From Alphaproteobacteria bacterium (GTDB lineage: Bacteria > Pseudomonadota > Alphaproteobacteria > Rs-D84), in the NCBI GenBank assembly GCA_017472065.1, contig JAFURB010000003.1:80524-143042 (forward strand): 62,519 nucleotides of DNA, given 5' to 3'. The position numbers and the translations under genes were made by a program. Under the pieces are notes generated by a model. That model had not been told where the DNA came from and ran no database searches. It saw nothing but the letters and a program-made list of their open reading frames with translations. Below, in pieces: positions 45,549 through 54,764 of the stretch; positions within the stretch are counted from its first letter, which is position 1, and each line of letters opens with the position of its first letter.

Positions 45549-46310
45549 TTACATTACCTTGCCTGATGTCGGATAAAATGTTAATTGGATTTTTTCCCAC
45601 TTGCTAAATTCATTTGCGGGCAACATATCCAGTGGCTGACACACATTTATCGCATCACGAATAGTTTCCAAAACATACGCAAATGCAGGATCGGTTTCTG
45701 CGCGCGCCTCTGATTCAAACCATATGTCGCGCACCGTGCCATTGCGTCGCATCGTTAAATGTGCCACTGCACGAATATCGCTAATGTCAGTGCGTGTTGT
45801 ATCAACAACCCAACAACGTGTCATCGCAACGCGCAACGCATCGACAACAGACACCGTCATTGTTCTGTCCAAACTCATCACTTCGCGATTAACACGAATT
45901 ACCCGTTTTTTCTTGGGCGCAGGTGCCGGTTCAACTTTTTTTTCTTCGACCGGTTCTGGCTTTTTATCTTCTTTTTCCGGCTCTGGTTCCGGTTCTTCGA
46001 CCAATGACGGTTCTTCGATTGGTTTTGGTTCTTCTTTTTCTGGTTCTGGCTCTGGTTGCGGCTTTGGCTTTGGTTTTTCTTCTTTGACCTTTTCCGGTGC
46101 CACATCCGCATTTACATTTTGCAGTTTTGTTTCGTCCCCAGAAATCTTGACATTATTCAAGTCAATTTCCATTATTTCAATTCTGTCTGGCGCCACCAGT
46201 CGTGCGCGATCCATAATAATCACCACCGATGTTACCAACATCGCCACAACCAACAGGTGCCCCCCAACAGACATCAATATGTTTTCAAGATTAAAATACC
46301 TATTTTTCAT
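45549..46310 (-). CDS. tolA: TolA-like envelope protein
   Basis: 253 residues. An inner-membrane helix (about 8-30) is followed by a Pro/Glu/Lys-rich periplasmic spacer (KPKPKPQPEPEPEKEEPKP) and a C-terminal TolA/TonB-like domain (AVAHLTMRRNGTVRDIWFES). It would link TolQ-TolR to the outer membrane. The true start is the ATG at 46310; a TTG nine bases upstream lies in the repeat. The heptad array of the inserted element ends only 3 nt before this ATG, leaving no ribosome-binding site. tolB and pal are not in the window. Confidence 0.85.
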   Translation of the reverse strand: MKNRYFNLENILMSVGGHLLVVAMLVTSVVIIMDRARLVAPDRIEIMEIDLNNVKISGDETKLQNVNADVAPEKVKEEKPKPKPQPEPEPEKEEPKPIEEPSLVEEPEPEPEKEDKKPEPVEEKKVEPAPAPKKKRVIRVNREVMSLDRTMTVSVVDALRVAMTRCWVVDTTRTDISDIRAVAHLTMRRNGTVRDIWFESEARAETDPAFAYVLETIRDAINVCQPLDMLPANEFSKWEKIQLTFYPTSGKVM

Positions 46311-46313
46311 AAT

Positions 46314-46341
46314 GTTCAAAGTTCATAGTTCAAAGTTCAAT
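46314..46341. repeat. Heptad array, 3' end of four-helix-bundle unit 1
   Basis: Four 7-bp units on the plus strand: GTTCAAA, GTTCATA, GTTCAAA, GTTCAAT. They are inverted relative to the array at 46714-46747. The stop codon of the enclosed gene (TGA) is supplied by the first unit. Confidence 0.9.
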
Positions 46342-46699
46342 TATTGTTGGAACGATTTTTCATTGTTTTTGTAGTTGCTGTTAATATTCTGGTTAACTCA
46401 TTGCAATCCGCATAAATACTTTTATACTCCTTTTCTGTTATTATTACAGATTCATACAGTAAATCTAACCAGTACTGAGTTTCGGCGCATTCTTTCAGTG
46501 CAATATAAACTTTTAGAATAAAATCTTTTCTTGTCATTGCACATTCTGCTTCTGCCAAATTTGCACCAATACTTGTTCCACTACGCAACAGCTGATTAGA
46601 AAGAACAAACTCTTTTTTCGTATCAACTAGATATCTATACAAGTGTATTATTCGCAATGCAAATTTTTTACTCTTAATTAATCCTATATTATCTTTCAT
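46337..46699 (-). CDS. Four-helix-bundle protein (S23/23S rRNA IVP/Avd-like), copy 1
   Basis: 120 residues from the ATG at 46699, about 10 nt after AAGG. Hallmark [18 protein letters not shown] (about residues 37-54) and YIALKECAETQYWLDLLYES define the four-helix-bundle family known from ORFs in 23S rRNA intervening sequences and as Avd in diversity-generating retroelements. A longer in-frame reading to 46741 translates the repeat array itself. No reverse transcriptase or rRNA is nearby. The biochemical role of such stand-alone copies is unknown. About half its residues match copy 2. Confidence 0.85.
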   Translation of the reverse strand: MKDNIGLIKSKKFALRIIHLYRYLVDTKKEFVLSNQLLRSGTSIGANLAEAECAMTRKDFILKVYIALKECAETQYWLDLLYESVIITEKEYKSIYADCNELTRILTATTKTMKNRSNNN

Positions 46700-46713
46700 T
46701 TTTGTATGCCTTA

Positions 46714-46747
46714 TTTGCACTTTGCACTTTGAACTTTGCACTTTATG
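46714..46747. repeat. Heptad array, 5' end of four-helix-bundle unit 1
   Basis: Plus-strand units TTTGCAC, TTTGCAC, TTTGAAC, TTTGCAC and a partial TTTATG, the reverse complement of the other end. It fills the gap between the tolR stop and the enclosed gene. Confidence 0.9.
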
Positions 46748-46749
46748 TT

Positions 46750-47148
46750 TTATTCTGGCTGTGTACGCAATCCAACTTTCTGGAAACCTGCATCTTTTAA
46801 TTTTCCCATCATAGACATAACCGCACCATAATCGGCGGATGTGTCACCACTTATTGTTATGGTTAATTGCGGATTTTCGCCACGCATTGCAATTGCGCGT
46901 TTTACAATTTCATCGCGTGTTAATTGCGTTTCAGACAAATAATAATTGCCATTTTTATCAACACTGATTTGAATTGCATGGTCGTGACCGGTCATTGCCG
47001 ACGCACCAGCGCGTGGTAAATTCAAATCAATCCCCGTTGTCATCATTGGTGTTGTCACCATAAACACCGCCAATAACACCGTCATCACATCAATCATAGG
47101 TGTCAATTGAATCGATGTGTCATTATTTCTGCGTCTTAATCTGGACAT
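46750..47148 (-). CDS. tolR: TolR, Tol-Pal membrane protein
   Basis: 132 residues, ExbD/TolR family. One N-terminal membrane helix with the functional Asp (QLTPMIDVMTVLLAVFM, about 17-33) and a periplasmic domain (LTITISGDTSADYGAVM, GLRTQPE). It forms the proton-driven motor with TolQ, 12 bp upstream. The element unit 1 begins right after its stop. Confidence 0.92.
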   Translation of the reverse strand: MSRLRRRNNDTSIQLTPMIDVMTVLLAVFMVTTPMMTTGIDLNLPRAGASAMTGHDHAIQISVDKNGNYYLSETQLTRDEIVKRAIAMRGENPQLTITISGDTSADYGAVMSMMGKLKDAGFQKVGLRTQPE

Positions 47149-48046: not shown

Positions 48047-49036
48047 CTATTTCTCCAGCCCCAGGTGTTTATAACCTGCATCTGTTACAATACGACCACG
48101 CGGTGTACGCTGAATAAACCCTAACTGCATTAAATATGGTTCAATAACATCTTCGATTGTATCTGCCGGCTCTGACAATGCTGCAGACAGGTTTTCAATA
48201 CCAACCGGCCCGCCGGCATAATGTTTAATAATCGTATTCATATATTCACGATCAATTTCATCCAACCCACATGCATCAATATGCAATTGGAACAGGGTGG
48301 TTTTAATAATATCGGCTGTAATTTGATTCTTAGACAATGCGCCGGCAAAGTCACGCGCGCGTTTCAACAATCTATTTGCAATACGCGGTGTTCCGCGCGC
48401 CGACCGCGCCAACATCAACGCGCCATCGGTATCAATTGGTGTCCCCAAAATATTTGCGCTGCGCTGAATAATTTTTGCCAAATCATCTGGGCTGTAAAAT
48501 GTCAATCGCAAATCGATTCCAAATCGGTCACGCAATGGATTTGACAGCAATCCTGTACGCGTTGTTGCACCCACCAATGTAAACGGGGGCAGGTCAATTC
48601 TAACACTTTTCGCACTTGGCCCTTCGCCCAACATGATATCCAACTTGAAATCTTCCATTGCAGAATACAAGACTTCTTCGATTGCTGTCGGCAAACGATG
48701 GATTTCATCAATAAACAGAACATCCATTGGTTCCAGCGATGTTAAAATCGCCGCCAAATCCCCTTGCTTGGTCAACATTGGTGCCGCCGTTGCACGGAAA
48801 TTAGTACCTAATTCATTTGCAACAATGTGCGCCAGTGTCGTTTTACCCAACCCCGGGGGACCATACAGCAATACATGGTCCATTGCCTCGCCCCGGTTTC
48901 GCGCACCCGACACAAACACCGACAGGTTTTGTTTCAAACTTTCATGCCCAATAAAATCAGACAACGATCGTGGACGAATTGTCGCCGCCATATCGTCTGG
49001 AATATTTGCATCTAAAAAACGTTCCTTCGTACTCAT
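48047..49036 (-). CDS. ruvB: Holliday junction branch-migration ATPase RuvB
   Basis: 329 residues. [20 protein letters not shown] at the N-terminus, Walker [15 protein letters not shown] (about 59-72), Walker [11 protein letters not shown], sensor [20 protein letters not shown] and the winged-helix C-terminus ([20 protein letters not shown]). ruvA and ruvC are not adjacent. The ribosome site AGGGAC lies in the loop of a small hairpin directly before the ATG. Confidence 0.96.
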
Positions 49037-49062: not shown

Positions 49063-49090
49063 GTTCAGAGTTCAGAGTGCAGAGTACAGT
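49063..49090. repeat. Heptad array, 3' end of four-helix-bundle unit 2
   Basis: Plus-strand units GTTCAGA, GTTCAGA, GTGCAGA, GTACAGT. They code for the last residues of the enclosed protein (CTLHSEL) and supply its stop codon. Confidence 0.9.
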
Positions 49091-49442
49091 TATTCAACTT
49101 CTCTTGCATTGTTTGCGTCGTTTTATTCAACATTCGTGCAATATCATTACAATCCTTGAATAAACTTTTGTGCATCTGACCATTTATAAAATCTGCATCC
49201 CTTAACAAATCCAACCAATACATAGTTTCTTCAGCTTCCTTCAAGGCAATATATATTTTTGCCAGAAAGTCTTTTTTTGATATACCACACACAGATTCCG
49301 CAATATTCGCACCTATGCTTGTTCCACTACGCAAAATCTGCTTAGACATAACAAACTCCTTCTGCGTGGTTGTTAAAAACCTATACAGATTCACTATTCT
49401 AAGTGCAAACTTCTTGCTTTTTTGCTTAGCTGTTTCTTTCAT
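49065..49442 (-). CDS. Four-helix-bundle protein (S23/23S rRNA IVP/Avd-like), copy 2
   Basis: 125 residues. Shares [36 protein letters not shown] and [19 protein letters not shown] with copy 1. AAGGGTGG lies before the ATG at 49442. The C-terminus runs into the repeat array, adding CTLHSEL. Function of stand-alone members is unknown; nucleic-acid binding is suspected from the Avd homologues. Confidence 0.86.
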
Positions 49443-49453
49443 TGTCCACCCTT

Positions 49454-49483
49454 ACTGCACTCTGAACTCTGCACTCTGCAAAC
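49454..49483. repeat. Heptad array, 5' end of four-helix-bundle unit 2
   Basis: Plus-strand units ACTGCAC, TCTGAAC, TCTGCAC, TCTGCAA, reverse complement of the 49063 array; it directly abuts the stop codon of the upstream hydrolase gene. Confidence 0.9.
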
Positions 49484-54729: not shown

Positions 54730-54764
54730 ATTGCACTTTGAACTTTGCACTCTGAACTTTGAAA
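54730..54764. repeat. Solo heptad array without a gene
   Basis: Five units: ATTGCAC, TTTGAAC, TTTGCAC, TCTGAAC, TTTGAAA, the same heptad family as around the four-helix-bundle genes but with no such gene nearby. It abuts the terminator at 54762. Confidence 0.85.

Follow-up and report, generated by a model that had tools for sequence, protein, structure and literature searches.

Why should the two ends of a small genetic unit carry the same variant of a seven-nucleotide repeat? The question is raised by a stretch of 62,519 nucleotides (the window) from an Alphaproteobacteria bacterium of the Rs-D84 lineage (assembly GCA_017472065.1, contig JAFURB010000003.1). Two units of the window, unit 1 (46314-46747) and unit 2 (49063-49481), are cassettes of about 430 bp in which a gene for an S23 or "23S rRNA-intervening sequence protein" lies between inverted arrays of tandem heptads. 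A sequence-only reading, made under coordinates that stop short of unit 2, had proposed that the heptad variant is alike at both ends of each unit and that the ends changed together, as expected from base-pairing in RNA, base-pairing in DNA or copying from one another. The ends of these cassettes do change together, and DNA-level copying from arm to arm is the cause that fits best.

Left-right matching and the heptad word

In unit 1, the 3' arm (46314..46340, minus strand; GTTCAAA GTTCATA GTTCAAA GTTCAA on the plus strand) consists of four inverted heptads and contains the S23 stop codon. The 5' arm (46714..46744, minus strand) is TTTGCAC TTTGCAC TTTGAAC TTTGCAC TTT, which reads inward as four copies of GTKCAAA, and the arms are 83% complementary over 36 nucleotides. 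The stop codon also lies inside the 3' arm of unit 2 (49063..49089, minus strand; GTTCAGA GTTCAGA GTGCAGA GTACAG on the plus strand). The 5' arm of this unit (49455..49480, minus strand; CTGCACTCTGAACTCTGCACTCTGCA) reads inward as GTKCAGA and, reverse-complemented, as GCAGA GTGCAGA GTTCAGA GTGCAG, with 94% complementarity over 17 nucleotides. Heptad arrays account for 15 matches in the window against 1.6 expected, a count reached by 0 of 100 shuffles, and the heptad pattern is found 74 times genome-wide versus 0 for the reversed pattern.

The likeness of the variant at both ends holds for position 6, with CAAA in unit 1 and CAGA in unit 2, and fails for position 3 (T/G). In unit 1 the left array has T at the latter and the right array mostly G (reverse-complemented: GTGCAAA GTTCAAA GTGCAAA GTGCAAA), and the pair GTTCAAA/TTTGCAC, quoted by the sequence-only reading as matched, is itself mismatched there. 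Among the eight inverted heptad pairs inspected in the focal genome, the left-right correlation is r=0.79 at position 6 (exact permutation p=0.036) and r=0 at position 3 (p=0.56).

Two units alone cannot show covariation and, therefore, a larger set of S23 loci was tested. The first S23 genes taken from relatives all have inverted flanks with a period of about 7, which are locus-specific and related between left and right. Across 97 loci, the median best inverted match is 17.5; flanks paired with a wrong partner reach 8, and segments drawn at random from these loci 8.5. Seven is the best period in 67 of 74 cases, and the arrays average 4.7-4.9 heptads. A non-redundant set of 55 S23 loci (<60% protein identity) gives a mean left-right score of 19.76, compared with 8.42±0.33 in 10,000 permutations (permuted maximum 10.23). 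The own partner arm is top-ranked in 40 of these 55 loci, and matched ends are also seen in a set of 43 loci. The source of the 55 loci includes Bacteroidota, Bacillota, Cyanobacteriota, Spirochaetota, Chloroflexota and Gemmatimonadota; with the phylum of the window, the matched-end pattern spans at least seven phyla.

The co-change also takes place at fixed sites, as indicated by paired cassettes whose left and right flanks are both homologous. Before nuoD (NuoD identified by NCBIfam), the heptad is GCGAGTA in genome G080, GTGAGTA-like in G300, G308 and G375, GCGAATA in G446 and GCGAATG in G287, with both ends alike. The own left-right match beats the left-left or right-right match to the ortholog in all seven pairs below 60% protein identity and in 12 of the 18 pairs at 60-70%. 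Above 70%, an end resembles the same end of the ortholog more than its own opposite end. Repeated independent insertion at one hotspot, instead of vertical descent, is a possible alternative.

The heptad word itself is private to the element. Different S23 elements in one genome cross-match at a mean of 8.9, versus 19.8 for own arms (p=1.4e-13), and nearly every lineage has a different word (e.g., GTTCAAA, GAGAACA, AGTAGGC, AATTACG, and GACAGAT in Coxiella). It also drifts fast: the share of element pairs with a common heptad is about 1-2% below 50% protein identity and rises to 8% at 50-60%, 25% at 60-70% and 70% at 70-80%; above 80%, almost all pairs have it in common. The scores of the 55 loci, this same-genome control and the change in place at orthologous insertions strongly support that the ends change together; the covariation sought by the sequence-only reading, in a larger set and against a shuffled control, is present. 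It also argued that random divergence would not keep the ends matched; two arrays of about five heptads that mutate independently are an implausible source of the co-change at fixed sites.

A universal heptad motif was sought and set aside as weak. The motif N-A-R-R-N-R-T carries an information of 3.43 versus 3.17±0.15 for letter-shuffled heptads, most of which reflects an abundance of purines and a scarcity of C. In 38 of 43 matched loci the 5' arm is rich in purines, and it is poor in C (median 12%); this polarity is maintained in different phyla. One locus (L095/L161) has the reverse polarity, its 5' arm consisting of pyrimidine-rich CTCTCCA heptads.

Cassette genes, insertion sites and dispersed hairpins

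The S23/IVP four-helix-bundle open reading frame (ORF) of unit 1 (46337..46699, minus strand) encodes 120 amino acids from a likely ATG at 46699 (PF05635 E 2e-27; TIGR02436 8e-31); the mechanical ORF call is longer and starts at a GTG at 46741, within the 5' arm. That of unit 2 (49065..49442, minus strand) encodes 125 amino acids (PF05635 E 3e-28; TIGR02436 4e-31; PDB 2rld 4e-31). Both belong to the S23 family, with PF05635 scores of 95.9 and 98.5 bits for units 1 and 2 (cut-off 33.8) and TIGR02436 scores of 106.5 and 107.6 (cut-off 24). As in an intervening sequence (IVS), complementary ends able to form a stem bound the ORF in both units, and RNA folding predicts pairing of the arms (z = -2.5 each). 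No large-subunit rRNA match was found at units 1 and 2, both of which are placed between protein genes.

Unit 1 is located between tolR (46750..47148, minus strand; ExbD/TolR family, PF02472 4e-27), its upstream operon neighbour, and a tolA-like gene, whose TolA match is weak and whose call leans also on gene order. Unit 2 is located between an alpha/beta hydrolase gene and ruvB (48047..49036, minus strand; PF05496 3e-77), its downstream operon neighbour. The tolR|tolA junction is cassette-free and a few bases long in all 29 other genus genomes compared, and the region upstream of ruvB is without cassette in nearly all relatives compared. Both units are, therefore, insertions. The sequence AACAT flanks unit 1 (46305-46316; 46742-46756) and may be a target-site duplication, but overlaps the heptad word. 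Upstream of ruvB in genome G006 (contig C7, locus L221), a decayed copy of unit 2 retains both heptad arms and the N-terminus of an internally deleted S23. Decay can leave heptad hairpins behind.

In co-oriented gene runs, 36 of 38 cassettes are sense-oriented (36 vs 2, p=5e-9). Three cassettes with heptad arms (L011, L143 and L144) are found inside 23S rRNA genes. Others are placed in the sense direction within defence operons (L185, L269, L272 and L275), namely drmD-S23-pglX in Planktothrix, cas6-S23-cas4 in Anabaena 90, cas10-S23-cmr3 in Picosynechococcus and hsdS-S23-hsdR in Monoglobus. The search of viral contigs and phages yielded one viral-contig match and no phage match, so that the element is not evidently phage cargo.

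Heptads also occur apart from S23. The focal genome has about 25 heptad sites, including short hairpins and a repeat family of about 270 bp. The members of this S23-less family (window 54733-54764; L046, L047, L050, L053-L064) have heptad ends around a core that contains a GTCATACCGGCGAAGGCCGGTATCC palindrome, and many of them abut an intrinsic terminator. Among 21 genomes tested, AGTAGGC arrays are present in seven, six of one genus plus G139, which has an AGTAGGC-flanked S23; AATTACG arrays are restricted to G501 and G500. Many AATTACG heptad pairs and multi-array clusters were noticed in G501 (L277, L278, L279, L280, L281 and L287), and at L287 the array blocks are in tandem, with short GGAGGGAGG-like spacers between them.

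What keeps the arms alike

Base-pairing in RNA was one of the three causes offered by the sequence-only reading. Selection for such pairing alone, acting through compensatory mutations of the kind known from the stems of rRNA, agrees with the sense orientation in operons, with the stems of the predicted folds and with the cleavage of IVS stems in 23S rRNA by RNase III (PMC4990558). A stem held by pairing should, however, show more G·U-type than A·C-type mismatches. In the arms that pass the match threshold, to which the test is limited, the two types occur in about the same number (29:29 at 60% redundancy and 57:61 at 80% redundancy). The absence of a G·U preference argues that compensatory pairing in RNA is not what preserves the match. 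Position 3 of unit 1, in addition, yields G-A/U-C mismatches. Taken alone, this selection is an improbable cause.

Another of the causes offered, copying of the ends from one another, remains at the level of the DNA. The order of the heptad variants is mirrored between the arms beyond shuffles (894 vs 749±15 and 663±33), in a test partly inflated because the compared stretch had been selected on its matching. Some arms also have irregularities outside the heptads that are common to both, as in L162. The mirrored order, the common irregularities and the lack of G·U bias together indicate DNA-level copying, and template switching is a known mechanism that maintains hairpin arms (PMC8794818).

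Besides the inflation of the mirrored-order test, several points weigh against arm-to-arm copying. About 12 of the 55 loci have a weak or undetectable match, though several of these have visible heptads on both sides. The ends of unit 1 differ at position 3 and, therefore, copying would be incomplete or not recent. Template switching over about 400 bp exceeds the distance that is usual for quasipalindromes.

The main rival is recognition of the arms by protein, which could act together with copying. According to this explanation, a pentameric S23 protein (or a partner) reads the arms as ends for transposition and binds about five heptads in tandem. The protein would coevolve with its heptad, which would oblige both ends to have the word that it recognizes. 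The average number of heptads per array is close to the five chains present in each of the solved S23 structures, 2rld and 2gsc. The inspected heptad pairs point inward, the purine-rich 5' arms give the ends a polarity, and genomes are strewn with hairpins made of the heptad that is their own. In the focal genus, heptad arrays are only loosely linked to S23, being present in 6 of 10 genomes with S23 versus 10 of 49 without (p=0.018), and the lax position 3 and conserved position 6 of unit 1 resemble binding-site tolerance. On the other hand, no catalytic domain is known in S23, some genomes rich in heptads (e.g., G013) have no detected S23, and neither the mirrored order nor the irregularities common to both arms are necessary for binding. 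Recognition by protein is considered possible but rather doubtful.

Two further explanations were considered. Ordinary repetitive extragenic palindromic (REP) elements or REPIN, moved by a RAYT (Y1) transposase, might flank S23 by chance; they too are dispersed intergenic inverted pairs of lineage-specific sequence, and the dispersed heptad pairs have the form of REPIN. The repeat units are, however, tandem heptads instead of single REPs of about 20 nucleotides, and a Y1 transposase (PF01797) was found in none of the 15 heptad-bearing genus genomes searched, nor in G308, G312, G421 and G500, which makes this origin very unlikely. A low-complexity coincidence or an assembly artefact in a genome full of one repeat would account for the many sites of the same heptad family in the focal genome. 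It is contradicted by same-genome S23 elements with different, non-cross-matching heptads, by reversed-pattern controls at or near zero and by the recurrence of the pattern in the six phyla named above besides that of the window, and its probability is close to negligible.

The explanation considered slightly better than even is a mobile cassette of S23/IVS type whose arms are kept alike by DNA-level copying. The cassette is an insertion of about 460 bp that holds a single four-helix-bundle gene, flanked by two inverted arrays which point inward and have about five tandem heptads each. It lands between operon genes, mostly in sense, or in a 23S rRNA gene, and the host transcript would read through it. 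In this RNA the arms can pair around the S23 gene; in 23S rRNA, RNase III cuts such a stem and frees the IVS, as published for Coxiella, and in mRNAs the same stem may make the insertion nearly harmless. The heptad word is element-private and drifts fast, and template switching or conversion in a snap-back inverted repeat would keep the ends alike, with slippage within each array adding to the copying between arms. Stepwise compensatory mutation of RNA pairs would not be the maintaining process.

Significance and comparison with known systems

Genes of the S23/IVP kind are common; according to PMC4990558, what their elements do and where they come from has been unclear for over 25 years. A private and fast-changing end word, alike at both ends, defines the boundaries of the element and makes S23 binding testable by heptad swaps. 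The cassettes are also a natural system for watching the arms of an inverted repeat copy each other, and the private word accounts for the heptad hairpins scattered in these genomes. Tentatively, S23 and its heptad arrays might form a pan-bacterial class of mobile elements without known recombinase, in which pentameric S23 would read five heptads, lineages would rewrite both ends and the rRNA IVSs would be the members that landed in rRNA. The general matched-heptad pattern appears to be undescribed in the open-access literature, where the Coxiella heptads alone were noted before; a precedent in subscription journals is possible. A paper on rRNA insertions in the Candidate Phyla Radiation (PMC11270868) mentions neither S23 nor heptads.

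Among the closest known systems is the 23S rRNA IVS with an S23p ORF, for example that of Coxiella burnetii (PMC4990558), of about 430-444 nucleotides, with the ORF between terminal inverted repeats. Tandem GACAGAT heptads precede its S23p gene, vary in copy number between strains and are cleaved by RNase III at the first repeat. This agrees with the heptad pattern and provides at least one case in which the arms are connected with RNase III. The units of the window and nearly all other cassettes differ from it in their location between protein-coding genes, and that paper does not describe general, two-ended, lineage-specific and co-changing heptads.

In the parts of the REPIN/RAYT literature consulted (PMC3116915, PMC2817692), a private repeat likewise occurs in dispersed inverted pairs and flanks one type of gene; the cassette gene is, however, a four-helix bundle instead of a Y1 transposase, and its ends are tandem heptad arrays. 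Tandem heptads are also found in the class 3 sites of Geobacter metallireducens (PMC2700814), where five MTYCTGA are drawn as paired loops, and in the TAACTGA repeats of Beggiatoaceae (PMC4679880). The consulted portions of these two sources read them as regulator sites or translational elements and describe no S23 link or left-right covariation. Finally, in template-switch hairpins (PMC8794818) one arm is rewritten from the other without G·U intermediates, as proposed here for the S23 cassettes; those hairpins are stems of RNA genes, whereas the present arms bound mobile cassettes of about 400 bp.
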